Below, in pieces: positions 3,513 through 20,538 of a DNA stretch of 20,902 nucleotides. The DNA comes from a virus: IMG/VR virus record IMGVR_UViG_3300042549_007284, positions 1 through 20,902 of that record; one strand, 5' to 3'. The translations under genes were made by a program, and so were the position numbers. Each line of letters starts with the position of its first letter. Position 1 is the first letter of the stretch. The notes beneath the pieces are model-generated. The model saw nothing but the letters and a program-made list of their open reading frames with translations. It had not been told where the DNA came from and made no database searches.

Positions 3513-3905
3513 ATGATTATATACTCACCAACAATATCAGGTTCAGTTACCATAAGTGGTAGTTTAACTATACAAGGTACAGCTACGCTTACAGCATCAT
3601 TAGCAACAAGTGCTAGTTATGCTTTAACAGCAAGCTATGCTTTGAATGGAGGTGGTACAAGTGTTGATACAGGTTCGTTTGTTACAACATCCTCCTTTAA
3701 CGCATACACAAGTTCTATAAATAATAAAACTGGATCCTTTGCAACAACTGGATCCAATAGCTTTAAGGCAAGTCAAACTATCACAGGTAGTTTAACTATA
3801 TCAGGTTCATTAAATGTGTTTGGACCTATAACACAAAACGGAGCCCCCATAGGTGGAGGAGTCTCAGAAAACTTAGCAATAGCTTTTGCAATAGCATTAG
3901 GATAA
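3513..3905 (+). CDS. Short tail-fibre-like protein
   Basis: This 130-residue protein starts one base after the stop of the large fibre. It uses the same vocabulary: 'ISGSVTISGSLTIQGT', 'SASYALTASYALNGGG' and 'TGSLTISGSLNVFGPI'. The DNA and peptide similarity suggests that it derives from the neighbouring fibre by duplication or splitting. It has no recognisable head-binding or enzymatic domain, and it ends in a short hydrophobic stretch, 'LAIAFAIALG'. It may be a fibre tip, an accessory subunit or a fibre assembly partner. It probably shares a transcript with 284-3511, since there is no room for a promoter between them. Confidence 0.65.
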   Translation: MIIYSPTISGSVTISGSLTIQGTATLTASLATSASYALTASYALNGGGTSVDTGSFVTTSSFNAYTSSINNKTGSFATTGSNSFKASQTITGSLTISGSLNVFGPITQNGAPIGGGVSENLAIAFAIALG

Positions 3906-4458: not shown

Positions 4459-7400
4459 ATGGCATTAACAAATAACTTAAAACAACAAGTAGATCTACCT
4501 GTATTTGAATGGTTAAGATTTGCACCTGCTAATACATCAGGATTAACTTGTTTAACCACAGCAAGAGATGGTAGTAGTAGATACTTATATTATTTTGGAC
4601 CATCTAACGTTTTGTATCGTTATGATACAATAGGCGATTCTTGGCAACAACTAAGTACAGGACCAGTTACACCTAGTGCTATACTAAATGTTAAATATGT
4701 AAAAAATCAAGGATATAGAGGACAAGTATTGGGTGCTACTTCTTCAACACTACAAATACCATCTACAGGAGTAGATCCATCAGGATACGAAATCGAAATA
4801 TATTCCGGTACCGGTAAAGGTCAGCGTAGAACTATAACATCAGCAAATTCTGAAATAATACACGATGCAGGTGTAGCAACCTCAGCAGGTGTAAACTCAA
4901 TAGGTGATACTACTAAAAGATATGGATTCAATCAATGGGAAGGATATGGATTAAGAGTTATTTTTAATACTGGTTTCTCTCAATATAGGGAAATTCTTTA
5001 TAATACTAATGATACATTAACTGTATTTGACGCTAACTACGATGCTCGTAATTTTTTAGCAGCTCCATACTCTGCTACAGCACCATACGGCACACCAACT
5101 AATACACCACCCTCACAAGCAAACTTTGCAATAGTATCTCAAACAATAAATTTAGATTCTCCATGGGATATAACCCCAGATAGCACATCTAAATTCAGAG
5201 TTTTATCACACGGTATTTGGTGGGTAACGGGTGCTGCTTCACCTTTTTTTAGTTTCTATTATTATGATATTTTAAGTGATAGATTTGTACAGAAATTAAC
5301 ACCCACAGGTATATTTTCACCAGCGATTGGTACTGATTTTACATTAGCACCAATTAATAATCTAGTTGGAACATATTTTACCGGATCAATAACTTCCTTA
5401 ACATCACAATCAATTTCAGACTCGTCCCTCAATATGACAAGAGGTGATTGGGTTGGAGCAGAGATAGAAATTATATCAGGCTCAGGAATTGGACAAGGAA
5501 GACGAATATTTTCAAATACAACCGACACTTTTACTTTTGGAAGAGCATGGGATAATATGCCTACTATAGGTAGTAAGTACGCTGTAACAGGAGAAGAAGC
5601 AATTTACTTTGCTGGTAATGGTAATGCTAGAATGATAAAATACCATCCTGAAAGATCCTTATGGAGTACTGGTACTATAACAGATAATGGAATAACCTTT
5701 AACTTGGTTTTACAAAAATCTGATTTAATACAATCCCATGGAGTATCAACAGCTACAAGAGTAACTAACGCTGTAACAGCAATTAACACCACTCCAATAG
5801 TAGCAGGTACAGGTTATACAGTTGGTGATTTGTTAACTTTATCAGGTGGAGCAGGTCGTGTAAGAGTGGAAAATATAAATCCAGTTAACGGAGCAGTATT
5901 ATCCGTTTCATTATACAGCGGAGGATCTGGCTATTCAGCAACAACTGTAGCTACGACTCCACTAACAGCAGGTGGTACAGGATGTACAATAGCTATAACT
6001 TCGGTTGGAGTTTTAGGACATATAACAACTGCAATTAATCACGACTTTTTAATAGGAGACTCAGCAACATTTAAAGGTGCTACAGAAGCAGCATGGAACA
6101 CAACATACACAATCTCCGGTATACAATCTTTAACTGTGGTAGAAGTTTCTATTACTGCTACAGCAAACGCAGTAGCAAAGTATGCTTTAACAACATCATT
6201 ATTAGTAGATGAAACACAAAATTGGATACCAAACCAATTTGTAGGTAAATTAATATGTATTCAATCTAATGGATTAACTGGAACAGCCACGTGGAGAAAA
6301 ATTATAGGTAACTCACAGACAACAATATCTTTTCAGGCTGGTGTAGCACCAACAAATGGTAACTCAAGATATTTTATACAAGAACAGGAAGCATTTGGAA
6401 AAGATGCTCAATTTTTACCAGTTAGTGAATCTTCATATGGATTTGTTTCAAGTGCAACTACCAGTAGTATAACAGATACTTCTAGAAATTGGTTAGTAAA
6501 TACTTGGGCAAATAACAAAGTTTTATTTACATCATCCTCAGGTGAATTTTTTGAAAACATAATTACAACTAGCACAACTAGTTCTCTTAATTTTGGTAGA
6601 GCAGTAGCAGTTGGATCTACAACTAATACACTAGCTTATTGGGATACAAACGGATCAGGTTCCTTAACAGCAAATGGATCTGCTATATTTAACACAAGCG
6701 GAAATGGTATTTGTTGGAGTGGAACACGTTTTGTAGCAGTAGGTACAAGTACAGCATTAAATACAATTGCTTGGTCTAATGATGGAATAACATGGAATGG
6801 ATTAGGACAAACTATCCATACAACCACAGGAAATGGAGTAGCTTGGAATGGTATAAGATTTATAACAGTTGGTTCTGGGACAAACACAATTGCTCATTCT
6901 ACAGATGGAAACGCAGCAGCGACATTTACAGGTTTAGGTACATCCATATTCTCAACACAGGGTAATGCTGTTGCTTGGAATGGTACAAGATGGGTAGCAG
7001 TAGGTCAAGGTACAAATACAATAGCACATTGTATTGATACAGGATCCGCAGTAACATTTGTAGGCTTAGGTTTAGGCACATTTAGTACAGCAGGAAGAGG
7101 TGTTTGTTGGGCAGGAACACAGTTTGTAGCAGTAGGTAATGGTACAAATACTGTTGCTTCATCATCTAATGGTGTTACATGGTCAGGAATAGTAGGTCCT
7201 TTCTCAACACAAGGTAATGCTGTAGCATGGAATGGAAATATAACTGTAGCAGTTGGACAAGGAACAAATACAATAGCCTACTCAACTAATAGTGGTTCTA
7301 CTTGGACAGGAATACCTGGACCTTTTTCTACATCGGGTAATAGTATAGCATGGAATGGGACTTATTGGATAGCAGGAGGTGCAGGAACAAATACCTCAGC

Positions 7401-13914: not shown

Positions 13915-15654
13915 ATGGCAGAAACTTTAATATCACCCGGTGTTTTAGCAATAGAAAATGATAATTCTTTTGTATCTAAAAGACCTGTTACTGTAGGAGC
14001 AGCAATTATAGGACCAACAGTAAAAGGTCCTGTTGAGGTTCCAACAATAGTTACTACTTGGAATCAATATCAAAATGTATTTGGTACAACTTTCCAAAGC
14101 GGTAGTGCGACTAATCTTCAAACTTATACTTATTTAACCTCAATAGCAGCATATAATTATTTTGCTAACGGAGGTGAATCACTATTAGTAGCAAGAGTAG
14201 TATCACAATCTAGCGCTTGGGCATTTGCTTCTAGTTCATTAATTCCTACAGGATCAAGTGGTAACACATCTGGATTATCACCATTTGTACTTCAACCTCT
14301 TACTAAAGGAGACATTATGAATAATAGTGGTTCTGAAGTAGCAAATAATGTTTTACCAAGCGGATCAACAGATAATGTTAGATGGCAAATTATAAATGCA
14401 AATAGCGGATCAGGAACATTTGATTTGTTAATTAGAAGAGGTGATGATAATAGTTTACAACCTGCTGTTTTAGAGGCTTGGACTAGTTTAACTTTAGATC
14501 CATATTCTCCAAATTATATTTCTAAAATAATTGGTGATACAATTGCAAATTTTGTCACTGATCCGAACGGAAATGCTTCTATTCAATATTCAGGATCATA
14601 CGCTAATAGATCAAATTATATAACTGTAAAACAAGTAAACTTTACTACTCCTAATTATCTAAATAGTAACGGAGCAATATCAGTTCCTGCTTACTCATCT
14701 TCTATTCCTACAAACGCTAGTGGAACATTTGGTGGAGGAGCTAGTATATTCCAAGGTGGTGCTAATTTTTATAATGCTATAACTACACAAACTCAAGGAT
14801 TGGTTGGAGCTAATTACGATAATATGATTAGCTTATTAGCTAATACGGATGATTATAAATTTAATGTATTATTAACTCCTGGTTTAGTTGATTCACTTCA
14901 TAGTTCTCAAGTAAATAGTATTATCTCAAATACACAAAACCGTGGAGATAATATTTATGTACTTGATCTTGTGCCTTATAACTCTAGTACAAGTACTGTT
15001 ACTGCAGAAGCACAAGGACAAAATACATCATATGCTGCTTCATACTGGCCTTGGCTACAAGTAATTGAACCTTCAACAGGTCAATTAGTTTGGGTACCAG
15101 CTTCAACAATGATTGGTGGAGTATATGCTTATAACGATGCAGTATCAGAACCTTGGTTCGCACCAGCAGGTATTAACAGAGGTGGTTTATCTACAGTAGT
15201 AAGAGCAGAAACTAAATTGTCACAAGCACAACGTGATATATTATATACTGGTAAGGTAAATCCAATCGCAACATTCCCAGGAACAGGAGTTGTAGTATAT
15301 GGCCAGAAAACATTACAAACTAGAGCAAGTGCTTTAGATAGAGTAAATGTTCGTCGTTTATTAATTTCTCTTAAATCATATATCTCTCAAGTTGCTCTTA
15401 ATTTAGTATTTGAACAAAATACAGCAGCAACAAGAAATGCATTCTTAAGCCAAGTAAATCCATACTTAACAAGTGTTCAACAACGTCAAGGACTATATGC
15501 ATTTAAGGTAGTAATGGATGATTCAAACAATACACCTGATGTAATTGATCGTAATCAATTAATTGGTAACATTTACTTACAACCTACTAAGACTGCTGAA
15601 TTCATTTACTTGAACTTCAATATTACTCCAACGGGTGCAACATTCCCAGCGTAA
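13915..15654 (+). CDS. Contractile tail sheath protein (T4 gp18 family)
   Basis: This 579-residue protein assembles around the tail tube and contracts during infection. The N-terminus 'MAETLISPGVLAIENDNSFV' followed by 'TVGAAIIGPTVKGPVEVPT' and 'AAYNYFANGGESLLVARVV' is the classic sheath start. The C-terminal domain (about residues 430-579) has the conserved 'GKVNPIATFPGTGVVVYGQKT', 'DRVNVRRLLISLKSYI', 'FEQNTAATRNAFLSQVNPYL' and 'AEFIYLNFNITPTGATF' blocks. The middle (about 90-300) is the variable, surface-exposed insertion. T4 gp18 is 659 residues, so the variable part is smaller here. It is followed directly by the tube gene, as in T4. No Shine-Dalgarno sequence is visible; the start context is 'aattaacaatg'. 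Confidence 0.95.
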   Translation: MAETLISPGVLAIENDNSFVSKRPVTVGAAIIGPTVKGPVEVPTIVTTWNQYQNVFGTTFQSGSATNLQTYTYLTSIAAYNYFANGGESLLVARVVSQSSAWAFASSSLIPTGSSGNTSGLSPFVLQPLTKGDIMNNSGSEVANNVLPSGSTDNVRWQIINANSGSGTFDLLIRRGDDNSLQPAVLEAWTSLTLDPYSPNYISKIIGDTIANFVTDPNGNASIQYSGSYANRSNYITVKQVNFTTPNYLNSNGAISVPAYSSSIPTNASGTFGGGASIFQGGANFYNAITTQTQGLVGANYDNMISLLANTDDYKFNVLLTPGLVDSLHSSQVNSIISNTQNRGDNIYVLDLVPYNSSTSTVTAEAQGQNTSYAASYWPWLQVIEPSTGQLVWVPASTMIGGVYAYNDAVSEPWFAPAGINRGGLSTVVRAETKLSQAQRDILYTGKVNPIATFPGTGVVVYGQKTLQTRASALDRVNVRRLLISLKSYISQVALNLVFEQNTAATRNAFLSQVNPYLTSVQQRQGLYAFKVVMDDSNNTPDVIDRNQLIGNIYLQPTKTAEFIYLNFNITPTGATFPA

Positions 15655-15703: not shown

Positions 15704-16192
15704 ATGGCAGTATTAAATCCAAACGAAATATTCTTCACAGCATTTGAACCGAAAGTAAAAAATCGTTTTATAATGTATGTAGATGGAATCCCATCATATG
15801 TTATTAAGAAAATTGGACCAGTGAGTGTTGATATGGGTGAAATTAAATTAAACCACATTAACGTTTACCGTAAAATCAAAGGAAGAGCTCAATGGGCAGA
15901 TATTGAAATGACATTACATGATCCTATCACACCATCAGGTGCTCAATCAGTAATGGAATGGGTACGTTTACATCATGAATCTGTGACGGGTAGAGATGGT
16001 TACTCAGATTTTTATAAAAAGGACGTAACAATCAATATTTTAGGACCAGTAGGTGATATTGTATCAGAATGGATTATTAAAGGCGCATTTATTAAATCAG
16101 CTAATTTCGGTGATTATAGTTGGGATGAAGATGCGTCAGCACAAGAATTAACAGTTAACTTAGGAATGGATTACGCAATTTTGAACTTTTAG
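15704..16192 (+). CDS. Tail tube protein (T4 gp19 family)
   Basis: This 162-residue protein forms the stacked hexameric rings of the inner tail tube through which DNA passes. T4 gp19 is 163 residues, an excellent length match. Diagnostic segments are 'FEPKVKNRFIMYVDGIPSYVIKK' near the N-terminus (split by family variation), 'EIKLNHINVYRKIKGRAQWADIEMTLHDP', 'SVMEWVRLHHESVTGRDGYSDFYKKD' and the C-terminal 'YSWDEDASAQELTVNLGMDYAIL'. It directly follows the sheath, as in T4. The mobile endonuclease cassette begins about 30 bases after its stop, so this gene or its flank is a candidate recognition site for that enzyme. No terminator is visible between this stop and the cassette hairpin. Confidence 0.93.
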   Translation: MAVLNPNEIFFTAFEPKVKNRFIMYVDGIPSYVIKKIGPVSVDMGEIKLNHINVYRKIKGRAQWADIEMTLHDPITPSGAQSVMEWVRLHHESVTGRDGYSDFYKKDVTINILGPVGDIVSEWIIKGAFIKSANFGDYSWDEDASAQELTVNLGMDYAILNF

Positions 16193-16263: not shown

Positions 16264-16806
16264 ATGCTTAAATGTCAACTATGTGATTACGAAACCGATA
16301 AACAACAAAAATTAAGTAAACATACTTCTTTTATCCATAAATTAAAATTTCCTGAATATCTGATCCAAACTAAATATAATGGGGAAAATAGGTTATGTGA
16401 ATGTGGTTGTGGATCTTTTACAAATTATAATCCTAAAAACGGGGATTTTTTTGAATTTATAGTAGGTCATAATTCAAGAAAAGAAGGACATTGGGGTGAT
16501 TGGGACAACCCCGATAGAGTAAATAAAATTAAATCAACTCGTAAAGCTAAATTCAAATCAGGTGAATATGATTATATCAGGAACGCTGTTAAAGAAAATA
16601 GAAAACAACCAACTTTAGGTAAAAATATATCTAAAGGAGCTAAAGGAATACCTAAACCCAAACCCAAAGGATTTAGAGTAGGTAAAAAACACTCAAAAAA
16701 GACCAAAGAAAAAATGAGCAACTCGGCTATAAACCGAATTGTAAAAGAAGATAAACTACACATTTCCAAGTTAGAATATGAGTTTCAAAAAAAATTTTTT
16801 AGATAA
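16264..16806 (+). CDS. Homing-endonuclease-like gene, N-terminal part (zinc finger and DNA-binding region)
   Basis: The product is 180 residues, but it is probably the front of a 278-residue protein interrupted by a +1 frameshift in the A8T6 run at 16787-16800. Residues 4-25 form a C2H2 zinc finger (C4, C7, H20, H25). A second Cys cluster, 'RLCECGCG' (C45, C47, C49), leads to 'FEFIVGHNSR', a pattern common in phage homing endonucleases. Residues about 139-152, 'GKKHSKKTKEKMS', resemble a NUMOD3-type DNA-binding motif. The whole segment is Lys-rich. After the shift, residues of the last frame before the stop ('KLEYEFQKKFFR') would continue as 'KKFLDKLNIENI'. These elements are mobile and often insert between essential phage genes, as here between tube and tail-chaperone genes. 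Confidence 0.75.
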   Translation: MLKCQLCDYETDKQQKLSKHTSFIHKLKFPEYLIQTKYNGENRLCECGCGSFTNYNPKNGDFFEFIVGHNSRKEGHWGDWDNPDRVNKIKSTRKAKFKSGEYDYIRNAVKENRKQPTLGKNISKGAKGIPKPKPKGFRVGKKHSKKTKEKMSNSAINRIVKEDKLHISKLEYEFQKKFFR

Positions 16807-17101
16807 ATTAAATATAGAAAATATACATTCATATTATGTTAAAGAAATTAAAGCATTCTATGATTTTTATTTACCTAAATATAATACTATCATTGAAGTA
16901 GATGGAGATTTTTACCATTGTAATCCAATAAAATATCCTAATGGTTCAATATGTAAGACTCAAGAAAAAAATTTAATAAGAGATAAGGAAAAGAATGACT
17001 GGGCTCAAGATAATGGTTTTAAATTACTTAGATTTTGGGAAAATGATATAAAAAATAATCCACAACAAATAATAGAAATACTTAAACAAGAGCTCACCTA
17101 A
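16778..17101 (+). CDS. Homing-endonuclease-like gene, C-terminal nuclease domain (Vsr/EDxHD-like)
   Basis: This frame carries the catalytic half of the interrupted gene. The ATG at 16778 lies inside the upstream frame and lacks an RBS, so independent translation is doubtful. The domain shows 'YLPKYNTIIEVDGDFYHCNP' with acidic and His residues E40, D42, D44 and H47 of this ORF, then 'LIRDKEKNDWAQDNGFKLLRFWENDI' (about 66-91). This matches the Vsr-like PD-(D/E)XK fold used by EDxHD homing endonucleases such as I-Bth0305I. Key residues look intact, so the nuclease would be functional if the frame were restored by losing one base of the A/T run. The stop codon lies in the loop of the downstream hairpin. 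It could instead be a decaying remnant. Confidence 0.7.
   Translation: MSFKKNFLDKLNIENIHSYYVKEIKAFYDFYLPKYNTIIEVDGDFYHCNPIKYPNGSICKTQEKNLIRDKEKNDWAQDNGFKLLRFWENDIKNNPQQIIEILKQELT
16787..16800 (+). other. A8T6 run at the endonuclease frameshift point
   Basis: Eight A then six T sit exactly where the two reading frames of the nuclease meet. The upstream frame reads caa aaa aaa ttt ttt aga taa. Removing one A or T gives an uninterrupted 278-codon gene. Whether this is a real mutation, ribosomal or polymerase slippage, or a sequencing indel cannot be told from the sequence. Confidence 0.8.
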
Positions 17102-17168: not shown

Positions 17169-17894
17169 ATGGAAATCGCAAAAAACTTCCCAACTGAAAT
17201 TATCGAATTACCCTCAAAAGGATTAGTTTATCCCGAAGGAAATCCTTTATCAGAAGGAAAAATTGAAATGAAATATATGACCGCAAAAGAAGAAGATATT
17301 CTTACTAATCAGTCATACATTCAAAGTGGTATTGTATTAGATAAACTATTACAAGCACTTATTGTATCTAAAATCAATTACAGTGATTTGATTGTAGGAG
17401 ATAAAAATGCAATTATGGTTGCCGCTCGTATTTTAGGTTATGGAAGTGACTATACTTTTAACTACGGAGACCAAGAATATACAGTTGATTTAAGTAAAAT
17501 TGATAATAAACCATTTGAAATATCTAGTAAAGGTATTAATGAATTCAATTATACTTTACCGTCAACGGGTGTTAAAATCGCTTATAAAATCTTAACTCAT
17601 GGAGATGAACAAAAGATACAAGCAGAATTAGACGGCCTTAAAAAAATTAATAAAAACTCATCTGCTGAATTGTCAACACGTTTAAAATACATGATTACTT
17701 CAGTTGGTGGAGAACGAGATCCTAAAACAATACGAGAATTTGTTGATACTAATTTATTAGCTCGAGACTCACGTGAATTAAGAAAACATATAAAAGATAC
17801 ACAGCCCGATGTAGACTTAACTTTTTTTCCCGACGGGAGTAATGATAGAGTCGATATCCCAGTTGGGATTAAGTTTTTTTGGCCTGACTTCTGA
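17169..17894 (+). CDS. Tail-assembly chaperone / baseplate protein (T4 gp26-like)
   Basis: This 241-residue protein starts 'PTEIIELPSKGLVYPEGNPL' and continues 'GKIEMKYMTAKEEDILTNQSYI', then 'VLDKLLQALI' and 'VGDKNAIMVAARILGYGSDY'. This is the pattern of the T4 baseplate family containing gp26 (Pfam T4_baseplate as I recall it). Proteins of this type lie just upstream of the tape-measure gene and probably act, like lambda G, as chaperones of the tape measure. The C-terminus 'DIPVGIKFFWPDF' is typical for the family. The last 53 bases overlap the next gene in the +1 frame, with a run of seven T at 17874-17880, so a fraction of ribosomes may make a longer fusion. No Shine-Dalgarno sequence is present. 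Confidence 0.75.
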   Translation: MEIAKNFPTEIIELPSKGLVYPEGNPLSEGKIEMKYMTAKEEDILTNQSYIQSGIVLDKLLQALIVSKINYSDLIVGDKNAIMVAARILGYGSDYTFNYGDQEYTVDLSKIDNKPFEISSKGINEFNYTLPSTGVKIAYKILTHGDEQKIQAELDGLKKINKNSSAELSTRLKYMITSVGGERDPKTIREFVDTNLLARDSRELRKHIKDTQPDVDLTFFPDGSNDRVDIPVGIKFFWPDF

Positions 17895-18189
17895 GACAGC
17901 AGCACAAGTACGCGCTAATTTATTTACGCAAATACATGAAATTGTATTTCATGGTAAGGGCGGATACGACTGGGAAACTATTTATAATATGCCCCGTTGG
18001 CTCCGCCAATTTACTTTTAATAAAATTAACGAATATTATAAAAAAGAAGCAGAAGAACATGAAAAAGCTTCATCTAAAAGTAGTGGCAATAGATCCATAT
18101 TAGTAGATCCATCAGGTAATGTTAATAAACAAGCATTTAAAGAGGCTGCACCTAAGATTACACCTGGTCCTAAAGTTAGTTATAAATAA
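17842..18189 (+). CDS. Second tail-assembly chaperone part (T4 gp51-like), possible frameshift extension
   Basis: Read alone it is 115 residues from ATG 17842, but it lies 53 bases inside the preceding gene in the +1 frame and may be expressed wholly or partly as a frameshifted C-terminal extension. Conserved-looking segments are 'SFFGLTSETAAQVRANLFTQI' split by the T7 run, then 'HEIVFHGKGGYDWETIYNMP' and 'RWLRQFTFNKINEYYKKEAE'. The last 40 residues are Ser/Lys/Pro-rich and probably flexible. Position directly before the tape measure matches lambda T in the G/GT system and gene 51 of T4. An initiation at 17842 has no RBS, but neither do most genes here. Whether it is separate or fused is the main uncertainty. 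Confidence 0.65.
   Translation: MIESISQLGLSFFGLTSETAAQVRANLFTQIHEIVFHGKGGYDWETIYNMPRWLRQFTFNKINEYYKKEAEEHEKASSKSSGNRSILVDPSGNVNKQAFKEAAPKITPGPKVSYK
17874..17880 (+). other. T7 run, candidate +1 slip site between chaperone genes
   Basis: Codons aag ttt ttt tgg end the 0 frame of the chaperone. Two Phe tRNAs on TTT TTT can both move one base forward on the 7-T run and re-pair perfectly, after which the ribosome reads ggc ctg act and enters the downstream frame. A -1 slip would hit TGA within three codons, so only +1 or -2 would work. Confidence 0.5.
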
Positions 18190-18231: not shown

Positions 18232-20538
18232 ATGGCTACACCATCAGAAGAATCAGAAAAAGCAAAAAAACAACTAAAAGAAGTTAGTGATATTGTAGGT
18301 GCCCTTGATGAAGGCTTTAGAGAACTTACTAGTAGATTAACAGATGTTGTAGATGAAATTAAAGAAGGATCTAGTGAATTAACATCTTTTAATAATGTTA
18401 CTAAAGATATTAATCGTTCTCTTCGTAGTATAAGTAAAGCTAATGAAGATTTGATTAAAAATCAAATAAAACTTAATCAAGGTAAGTTAACATCAAAACA
18501 AGTTGAAGAACAGATTAATAAAGCTATAGCTACTCGACAAGTTTTAACTGGAAGATTAGATTCTCTTCAGAAAAAATTAAATTCTGGAATTTCTGTTTCT
18601 ATTGCTGAATATGATGAAGTTATGAGACTTCAAGAAGCTATAGCTGAAATATCTGGAGAAGTAGTTGATAATTTTGAAAAACAAAAAGATGAAGCCCAAA
18701 AACTAGAAAAAATATTAGGTATTACAGGTAAAACATTAAAAGGAATATCCAAAATTCCTATTATTGGAGATCTTGTTGATACTGAAGAAGCATTACAAGC
18801 AGCTACAATAGCAGCTCAAAACGGAGCAGGAAAAATAGGTGCAATGGGGGCAGCTATAGGTTCTTTAGGTAAAAGTCTTTTATCTAGTTTAACTGATCCT
18901 TTAGTAGTAATAGGATTATTAGTTAAAGGATTTCAAAAATTAGTTGAATTAGGATTTGCTGCTGATAAACAAATAGTAGATTTATCTAAATCAATGGGTT
19001 CTTCTAGAGAACAAGCTGCGGCATTAAGACAACGTTTTACAGAAATTCAAGATGGATCTATTAAAATTGGAGGTTCTTTAAATGATAATTTAAAAACAAC
19101 TAAAAATTTAGTAGCAGCACAATTAGAATTAGCTGATGCTTTTGGAACAGGTTTAGGATTTACAGATAGACAATTAGCTGATCAAGTTCTTTTAACTAAA
19201 GAAATTGGGTTATCCATAGATGAAGCAACTAGTCTTCAACAATTAGCTATGGCTAATGGAAAAACAGCAGATGATGTTGTCGATTCAACTATTAAACAAA
19301 CTGCTGCTCTAGCTAGACAAACAGGAATTCAATTAAATAACAAGAAAATACTAGGTGAAGTAGCTAAAGTATCAGGCCAAATAAGACTACAATACCAAAA
19401 CAATCCAGATCTAATAGCTAAAGCAGTTGTTCAGACCCAAAAATTAGGTATAAGTTTAGGTCAGGCAGCTAAAATGAGTAGTTATTTACTAAATTTTGAA
19501 GAATCAATAAGTGATCAAATATCAGCTGAACTATTAACTGGCAAACAATTAAATCTAGAAAAAGCTAGATTATTAGCCTTAAACGGAGACATAGCAGGAG
19601 CATCAGCAGAAATACTTAAACAAGTAGGTAGCGCTACAGAGTTTGGTGAAATGAATGTTATTCAACAAGAAGCATTAGCTAAAGCAGCTGGTATGACAGC
19701 AGATGAATTAGCAAATTCTTTAGTACAACAAGAAAGCTTAAATAGATTAGGGGACGCTGCTAAAAAAGACATTGCAGAAAGAGTTAAAATGTTAAAACTT
19801 CAAGGTCGAGAAATTGAAGCCAACGAATTAATGGCTTCCATTGGTAATGAAACAAAAGCTAAAGAGGCATTAATTGCAATTGATTCTCAAACAAATTTTA
19901 ATAATCTTATAGAAAAACTTCAAGGCATATTAGGAAATATGGCCGCAGGTCCCATGGCTGACATATTAAATAAAATATCTGAATGGACTAGTAAAACAGA
20001 AAATATACAAGGATTAATGGATGCTGTGAGTGGAACAGCTAAAGTCATAGCATCTATAACTAAATTCTTAATAGATAATTTTAAAGCAATATTAGTAATT
20101 GTCTCAGCTATAGCAGCATATATGATAACATCAGCTATTGCTGCCGCAATAATAAATCCAATAGGAGCAGCGGTTGGTGTAGGTATAGCAGCAGCAGCAT
20201 TAGCTGGAGGCGCAGTTGCTTTAAGTGATGGTGAAGTTAGTAGTGATGGTTTAGTAGTAGGAAAATACAATAAAGGTCAAATTCAACCAATTGCTCAAGG
20301 ACTACCAGAAGATAATGTAATATTTACTACTAATAAACCTACTTCTGTTAATAATAGTAATACAAATAATAGTGACTTAGCTAGAGAGATGAGAGAGATT
20401 AAAGCTATATTAGCTGATACATTAAATGTAGATAAACAAATAGCAGCTAATAATATGGCTAGACAAGCTGCATCTATAGTAATGGATAGTACCAGATTAG
20501 GTACAGCAGTTAATATGGGTACATATTCAGTACAATAA
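18232..20538 (+). CDS. Tail tape-measure protein
   Basis: This 768-residue protein sets tail length and is packed inside the tube. Residues 1 to about 165 are a long charged coiled coil ('EEGFRELTSRL' type heptads). A hydrophobic segment follows near 203-233 ('IGSLGKSLLSSLTDPLVVIG'). Residues about 240-600 are helical and repetitive, rich in Ala, Gln and Leu. Two adjacent hydrophobic helices near 610-665 ('AILVIVSAIAAYMITSAIAA', 'GAAVGVGIAAAALAGGAVAL') are typical of the part that may enter the host membrane. The C-terminus is polar with Asn-rich linkers and a last helix. By the usual rule of about 0.15 nm per residue, the tail would be roughly 115 nm. Position after a chaperone pair strongly supports the call. 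Confidence 0.88.
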   Translation: MATPSEESEKAKKQLKEVSDIVGALDEGFRELTSRLTDVVDEIKEGSSELTSFNNVTKDINRSLRSISKANEDLIKNQIKLNQGKLTSKQVEEQINKAIATRQVLTGRLDSLQKKLNSGISVSIAEYDEVMRLQEAIAEISGEVVDNFEKQKDEAQKLEKILGITGKTLKGISKIPIIGDLVDTEEALQAATIAAQNGAGKIGAMGAAIGSLGKSLLSSLTDPLVVIGLLVKGFQKLVELGFAADKQIVDLSKSMGSSREQAAALRQRFTEIQDGSIKIGGSLNDNLKTTKNLVAAQLELADAFGTGLGFTDRQLADQVLLTKEIGLSIDEATSLQQLAMANGKTADDVVDSTIKQTAALARQTGIQLNNKKILGEVAKVSGQIRLQYQNNPDLIAKAVVQTQKLGISLGQAAKMSSYLLNFEESISDQISAELLTGKQLNLEKARLLALNGDIAGASAEILKQVGSATEFGEMNVIQQEALAKAAGMTADELANSLVQQESLNRLGDAAKKDIAERVKMLKLQGREIEANELMASIGNETKAKEALIAIDSQTNFNNLIEKLQGILGNMAAGPMADILNKISEWTSKTENIQGLMDAVSGTAKVIASITKFLIDNFKAILVIVSAIAAYMITSAIAAAIINPIGAAVGVGIAAAALAGGAVALSDGEVSSDGLVVGKYNKGQIQPIAQGLPEDNVIFTTNKPTSVNNSNTNNSDLAREMREIKAILADTLNVDKQIAANNMARQAASIVMDSTRLGTAVNMGTYSVQ

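Follow-up and report, generated by a model that had tools for sequence, protein, structure and literature searches.

Most described tail chaperone frameshifts are of the −1 type, and +1 cases are rare. In lambda G/GT and other −1 tail assembly chaperones (TACs), the gene lies between those of the tube and the tape measure protein, a short and a long form are made from one start, the shift site ends the short frame, and the extension comprises about 100 residues; the lambda shift takes place on X_XXY_YYZ. A −1 shift, at GTTTTT, is also described for the TAC of Vandenendeviridae and Andersonviridae (PMC12846349). Shifts of the +1 type in tail genes are described for the Listeria phages PSA, A118 and A500, at CCC_UGA within the gene for the major tail protein, and for the archaeal myovirus HSTV-2, where the +1 frameshift was considered 'very likely', probably in the chaperone gene itself (PMC5009743). 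In phage T4, gp26 and gp51 (PF12322, phrog_150) are encoded by separate genes on opposite strands, with no frameshift; for T4-like phages, separate short and fused genes instead of a frameshift have been reported (Vladimirov 2022, to the extent that it is cited in PMC10885494). In bacterial prfB (RF2), the P-site tRNA moves +1 onto UUU at CUU_UGA, with a stop codon in the A site and Shine-Dalgarno pairing just upstream of the E site. On 70S ribosomes, hairpins designed to lie upstream of CUUUGA raise the +1 shift there, in imitation of the Shine-Dalgarno duplex (PMC6321510).

The locus studied here is contained in a window of 20,902 nucleotides of viral DNA (IMG/VR record IMGVR_UViG_3300042549_007284, positions 1–20,902, one strand). 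It resembles lambda G/GT in all the points just mentioned except that the shift would be +1 on a single UUU_U, and that its proteins are of a different sequence family. Its features are the following.

13915–15654, + strand: tail sheath protein (phrog_23, E 2.3e-73)
15704–16192, + strand: tail tube protein, gp19-like (phrog_4542, E 3.7e-21)
17169–17894, + strand: TAC-N, the short form (241 aa) of the gp26-like tail assembly chaperone, read in frame 0, with stop TGA at 17892–17894
17169–18189, + strand: TAC-NC, predicted fused long form, 339 aa, protein P0001, via a +1 shift; profile alignment with T4 gp51
17842–17844, + strand: ATG in the +1 frame, a non-conserved start
17842–18189, + strand: ORF of 115 aa in the +1 frame relative to 17169–17894
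17856–17869, + strand: hairpin ATCCC-AGTT-GGGAT (−6.0 kcal/mol), separated from the T run by 4 nt
17874–17880, + strand: T7 run, with putative slip site UUU_U at 17877–17880 (P-site codon 17877–17879 to 17878–17880)
17880–17882, + strand: TGG (Trp), in the A site in frame 0 at the moment of the putative slip; after a +1 shift the A site would hold GGC, 17881–17883
17881–18189, + strand: TAC-C, +1-frame extension (GLTSETAAQVRANLFTQIHEIVFHGKGGYDW...), stop at 18187–18189, helices predicted
18232–20538, + strand: putative tape measure protein, 768 aa, named from its position and its annotated counterpart in an immuto phage

An earlier note on this DNA had placed the chaperone locus before the tape measure gene, and indeed it lies between the tube gene and the tape measure candidate, in a gene order identical to that of the immuto phage. 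For the candidate itself, the only match was a weak one, to a PHROG without a name. The tube gene is also separated from the TAC-N gene by an inserted pair of homing endonuclease ORFs. The two ORFs, 16264–16806 (zinc-finger/NUMOD3-like) and 16778–17101 (homing endonuclease, HNH/Vsr-like, phrog_559, E 1.6e-15), overlap in the +1 relation, with an A8 run at 16787, and look like either one homing endonuclease split by an indel, through decay or an error of assembly, or another recoding site. Several long ORFs of the − strand (568–903, 2218–2634 and others) run antisense to tail genes of repetitive, Ser/Thr-rich sequence and probably reflect composition.

Concerning the overlap, the ORF coordinates agree with the 53 bases in +1 relation claimed in the earlier note (17842–17894), and the run of exactly seven T that it described is found at 17874–17880. 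Across this run, frame 0 reads TTT TTT TGG CCT GAC TTC TGA, and frame +1 reads TTT TTT GGC CTG ACT TCT GAG. The sequence TTTTTTTGG is unique within the window; T7 alone occurs also at 5244, 16446 and 17822, the last of these (17822–17828, ACT TTT TTT CCC) being in the same gene, 52 bases upstream. A −1 site of the type X_XXY_YYZ was rejected for the window, as TAC-C is read in the +1 frame.

The TAC-N protein of the window matched phrog_150 (E 6.7e-8) and gave no PF12322 match itself, while PF12322 was found in 48 of the 65 aligned TAC-N homologues (best value 1.3e-21). This domain spans residues 1–206 of T4 gp26 and 1–201 of T4 gp51, and TAC-N is, judging from the profile matches, a member of the T4 gp26/gp51 family. 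With fused TAC-NC, phrog_150 was matched up to position 271 of 282. In profile alignments, T4 gp26 was confined to TAC-N, whereas T4 gp51 covered TAC-N plus TAC-C, the latter with a modest match (hhalign probability about 70%, E about 4e-5 to 5e-5). So, T4 gp51 resembles the TAC-N and TAC-C parts fused in frame, and T4 seems to hold both products as separate genes. The label 'gp51-like', given earlier to the second ORF, is appropriate for the C-terminal part of gp51 and not for the whole protein, since T4 gp51 aligns with fused TAC-NC. A complete gp51 in the second ORF was discarded, as the PF12322 domain sits at gp51 1–201 and the ORF corresponds to the C-terminal extension only. A frameshift in T4 itself was discarded too, genes 26 and 51 not being joinable from opposite strands.

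For structure prediction, TAC-N and TAC-C were modelled apart, because a joint alignment misplaced the C rows, and the alignment input contained no rows from named phages. TAC-N was predicted by AF2 with pLDDT 93. Compared with 816 PDB chains, its top two matches were YqbN (Z 5.8), a tail chaperone of the XkdN-like type, and 2ob9, the TAC of HK97 (Z 4.9), both with modest Z and with Foldseek E > 0.001; no sequence relative of TAC-N was found in the PDB. TAC-C is predicted to be a short helical domain. It gave only sub-threshold, unrelated matches in Pfam and only weak matches in PHROGs, of which tail assembly chaperone (E 0.044) and baseplate hub assembly catalyst (E 0.029) are apt.

The conservation of the site was studied in relatives obtained by two routes. 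A protein search of IMG/VR yielded 80 loci, 64–87% identical. In nearly all of them the gp26-like frame ends with TTTTTTTGGCCTGA and a stop soon after, the flanks and the stop position being variable, and the +1-frame ORF runs about 240–320 bases beyond the stop wherever there is enough contig, except for one locus (L059), where this length is 79 bases. In 74 of 75 distinct protein-found relatives the last Trp is preceded by TTT TTT, and in the other one by TTT CTT; the Trp codon TGG was kept in 75/75. As TTC makes up 17% of the remaining Phe codons in these genes, the conservation of the site is far above chance; the bias of the P-site codon alone gives p about 1e-6 assuming independent loci, which these are not.

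The other route was a scan of IMG/VR with the bare 15-mer TTTTTTTGGCCTGAC, without protein information, from which 120 matches were listed; the figures derived from this and other DNA scans are fractions among the matches listed, not absolute abundances. Among the matches listed, 119/120 fall where a gp26-like ORF ends, and a homologous +1 ORF is present too in 118/120, so the overlap, for which the earlier note had proposed an alignment of related phages, is kept in relatives. HMMs for both frames, trained on the protein-found loci, were tested on the separate 15-mer loci. With 114 distinct new loci listed, the gp26-like protein was recognized in 114/114 and the +1 extension in 113/114, the exception (L190) having a +1 frame of 7 residues only. 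TTTGG was present in 236/236 pattern-defined loci listed, by construction of the pattern. The residues WPD (frame 0) and GLT (frame +1) fix all the bases of TGGCCTGAC, so the conservation of these bases needs no extra cause, and they may have a further role. A scan with one divergent chaperone (L166) gave no match beyond L166 itself. From this comparison, the +1 site appears to be common to a very large group of uncultured T4-like phages. The earlier note had called a +1 case in a T4-like phage unusual; the site is not restricted to this one phage.

The natural variants of the site inform on which tRNA slips. Control scans of IMG/VR were run with the synonymous variants TTC TTT TGG and TTY TTC TGG (120 matches listed each), and among the matches listed a chaperone context was found in 52/120 and 1/120, respectively. 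The single locus with TTC TGG (L227) reads GAT TTT TTC TGG, with UUU_U retained one codon earlier. Near base 3514 of this locus, the +1 frame contains two copies of the GLT motif (FSGLTYEFFGLTFEY), which resembles a duplication of the junction. Considering the 236 distinct loci listed, TTCTTTTGG occurs in 44 and TTTCTTTGG in 2, both containing T runs of three or four only. In immuto phages, TTT CTT TGG provides CUU_U, i.e. the prfB slip. The P-site codon would re-pair on UUU after a +1 movement from UUU_U, or from CUU_U in two loci. The variant counts indicate that UUU is required in the P site, with a U after it, the preceding codon being free, and the natural use of TTC TTT TGG indicates that one tRNA-Phe slipping +1 is enough and disfavours a tandem slip. 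So, of the claim that both tRNAs slip on T7, the reading of the run as Phe-Phe stands, and the need for the second tRNA does not; likewise, TTT TTT is nearly always kept in protein-found loci, but TTC TTT TGG and TTT CTT TGG are naturally used as well. It seems reasonable to interpret that the requirement is a single P-site tRNA-Phe moving from UUU_U to UUU before Trp, in a shift that is +1 and neither −2 nor an RNA polymerase slippage.

These data can be confronted with other ways of producing the +1-frame product. If there were two separate, coupled genes, the +1 ORF would start at ATG 17842 or TTG 17863 and the overlap would be mere compact packing. The window does have GGGAG directly upstream of ATG 17842, many relatives, window included, retain some possible +1-frame start, and a TTG at −11 in that frame is seen in 97/236 loci listed. 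However, an ATG at the position of 17842 occurs in just 6/236 loci listed, by which an independent start there was ruled out, and 64/236 loci listed (38/96 clusters) are devoid of ATG, GTG or TTG in the +1 frame over the interval between the last +1 stop and the twelfth codon after the slip. Coupling, moreover, leaves unexplained the near-absolute preference of TTT over TTC before TGG, which makes separate genes very improbable. The CTG right after the slip is nearly invariant, with only the T run upstream, and may be a rare start codon.

A −2 ribosomal frameshift on the T run, which would add an extra Phe to the fusion, arrives in the same frame as +1, and T7 alone permits both; a −2 frameshift is known in phage Mu. 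But with the common variant TTC TTT TGG the Phe-tRNA would be placed on UCU, and the immuto sequence fits +1 as in prfB, so this mechanism is even less probable than separate genes. Equally improbable is transcriptional slippage, in which RNA polymerase would drop one U and mixed transcripts would yield both proteins. T7 is certainly a homopolymer in an AT-rich phage, but TTCTTTTGG and TTTCTTTGG are used with their short T runs, so no long uninterrupted homopolymer is kept in all the 236 loci listed, and the required UUU_U has a fixed codon phase. The site, the +1 ORF, the variants and the missing starts support the proposal of the earlier note, and the locus very probably encodes a tail assembly chaperone made in two forms, as a G/GT-type pair, by +1 programmed frameshift.

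The reading of the overlap in the earlier note was correct as to the slip site, but it missed the hairpin upstream of it (17856–17869). In the 30 nt before the T run, the cluster mean of the folding energy was −5.97 kcal/mol versus −3.64 kcal/mol in synonymous-codon shuffles, and the natural fold was the more stable in 82/96 clusters (p 1e-13), while the control stretches −90 to −60 and −150 to −120 showed no stability excess (p 0.9 and 0.7). The most frequent loop centres lie between −9 and −12; the 3′ arm stops a few bases before the T run. The arms vary widely and yet match (GGTTCC/GGAACC, CCGC/GCGG, TACCG/CGGTA). Swapping arms between clusters cost a mean of 1.7 kcal/mol (z about −9.4, 0/200 swaps), with no such effect in the control regions (z −1.4 and −1.0) and a weaker one inside the cluster of the window (z about −2.4). 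These p-values are indicative, as the clusters share ancestry and composition. Downstream RNA structure showed only a weak excess (63/95 clusters, p 7e-6). It is conceivable, though it is the less likely interpretation, that the frameshift is real and the hairpin is a by-product, with no role, of the residues V-P-[IL]-G and of base composition. The conserved Pro and Gly encoded there favour CC...GG pairing, some loci have no upstream hairpin, and the arm-swap z ignores base composition and phylogeny; against this, the excess is over synonymous shuffles and swapped arms pair much worse, which the controls do not reproduce. The hairpin is thus probably a stimulator of the +1 shift.

No Shine-Dalgarno-like purine tract is conserved at −10 to −4, where the hairpin takes its place. 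The nearest isolates infect Flavobacterium, and related MAG contigs are of Flavobacteriales and Winogradskyella, so the hosts are likely Bacteroidota. The ribosomes of Bacteroidota hide the anti-Shine-Dalgarno; even so, prfB is still frameshifted with the aid of a Shine-Dalgarno in many of them (PMC8710568). We infer that the hairpin could act as a natural Shine-Dalgarno substitute in such hosts.

Beyond what the comparison displays (a conserved site, the +1 direction, the dependence on UUU_U, a coding +1 extension, startless relatives and a co-varying hairpin), we infer the making of the fusion, its rate, the stimulation by the hairpin and the roles in assembly as follows. Most ribosomes would stop at the end of the gp26-like frame, yielding TAC-N. 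A fraction, with peptidyl-tRNA-Phe on UUU 17877–17879 and UGG in the A site, would slip forward to UUU 17878–17880 and then read GGC CUG and so on in the +1 frame, yielding TAC-NC with its helical C-terminal domain. The hairpin would re-form behind the ribosome, in the place of the prfB Shine-Dalgarno duplex, and would probably help the ribosome to slip forward. Judging from lambda G/GT, TAC-N would coat the tape measure protein and TAC-NC would recruit tube subunits.

Far relatives were judged by reading frames and helix-like motifs, not by profile statistics. A +1 extension follows TTT TTT TGG in Microcystis phage Mel-JY01 and Rhodothermus phage RM378, UUU_C in Streptococcus phage GXN1, Bacillus phage SP-15 and megaphage LR756508, and TTT TTT A in Listeria phage LIS04, while in megaphage LR756511 and Pseudomonas phage MIJ3 (PA5oct-like phage) the extension lies in frame −1, behind U_UUU_UUC. 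The junction thus appears to be retained across far relatives while the direction of the frameshift differs. On balance, we lean slightly towards a bacterial +1 site family, spread over diverse phages, in which a re-folding E-site hairpin replaces the Shine-Dalgarno push and Trp is in the A site, with −1 (U_UUU_UUC) used in at least two remote lineages.

Tail chaperone frameshifting was already known as a kind; the +1 family seems very well supported by comparison, and no description of it was found in a literature search that covered few subscription papers. In immuto phages, the extension is annotated merely as a 36-aa hypothetical ORF, an example of how current annotation misses the long product. 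The relatives gathered present one +1 site in hundreds of natural mutant forms, and offer one junction with a lineage-dependent frameshift direction. With T4, the locus shares the TAC-N domain family, gp51 aligning with both parts, but very common uncultured T4-like phages would use +1, versus the mechanism other than frameshift reported for T4-like phages in the work cited in PMC10885494. With Vandenendeviridae and Andersonviridae it shares a myovirus tail chaperone locus and a conserved T-rich shift site, and differs in direction; with the Listeria phages and HSTV-2 it shares the +1 shift in tail genes, and differs from the former in site and gene. Like prfB, the locus would have a P-site tRNA that moves +1 onto UUU, with a duplex directly 5′ of the E site, and in immuto phages even CUU_U is used; unlike prfB, it has the sense codon UGG in the A site, an mRNA hairpin and no autoregulation. 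It would thus be a natural, testable case of an upstream hairpin as a Shine-Dalgarno mimic, a role so far described for designed hairpins only (PMC6321510).
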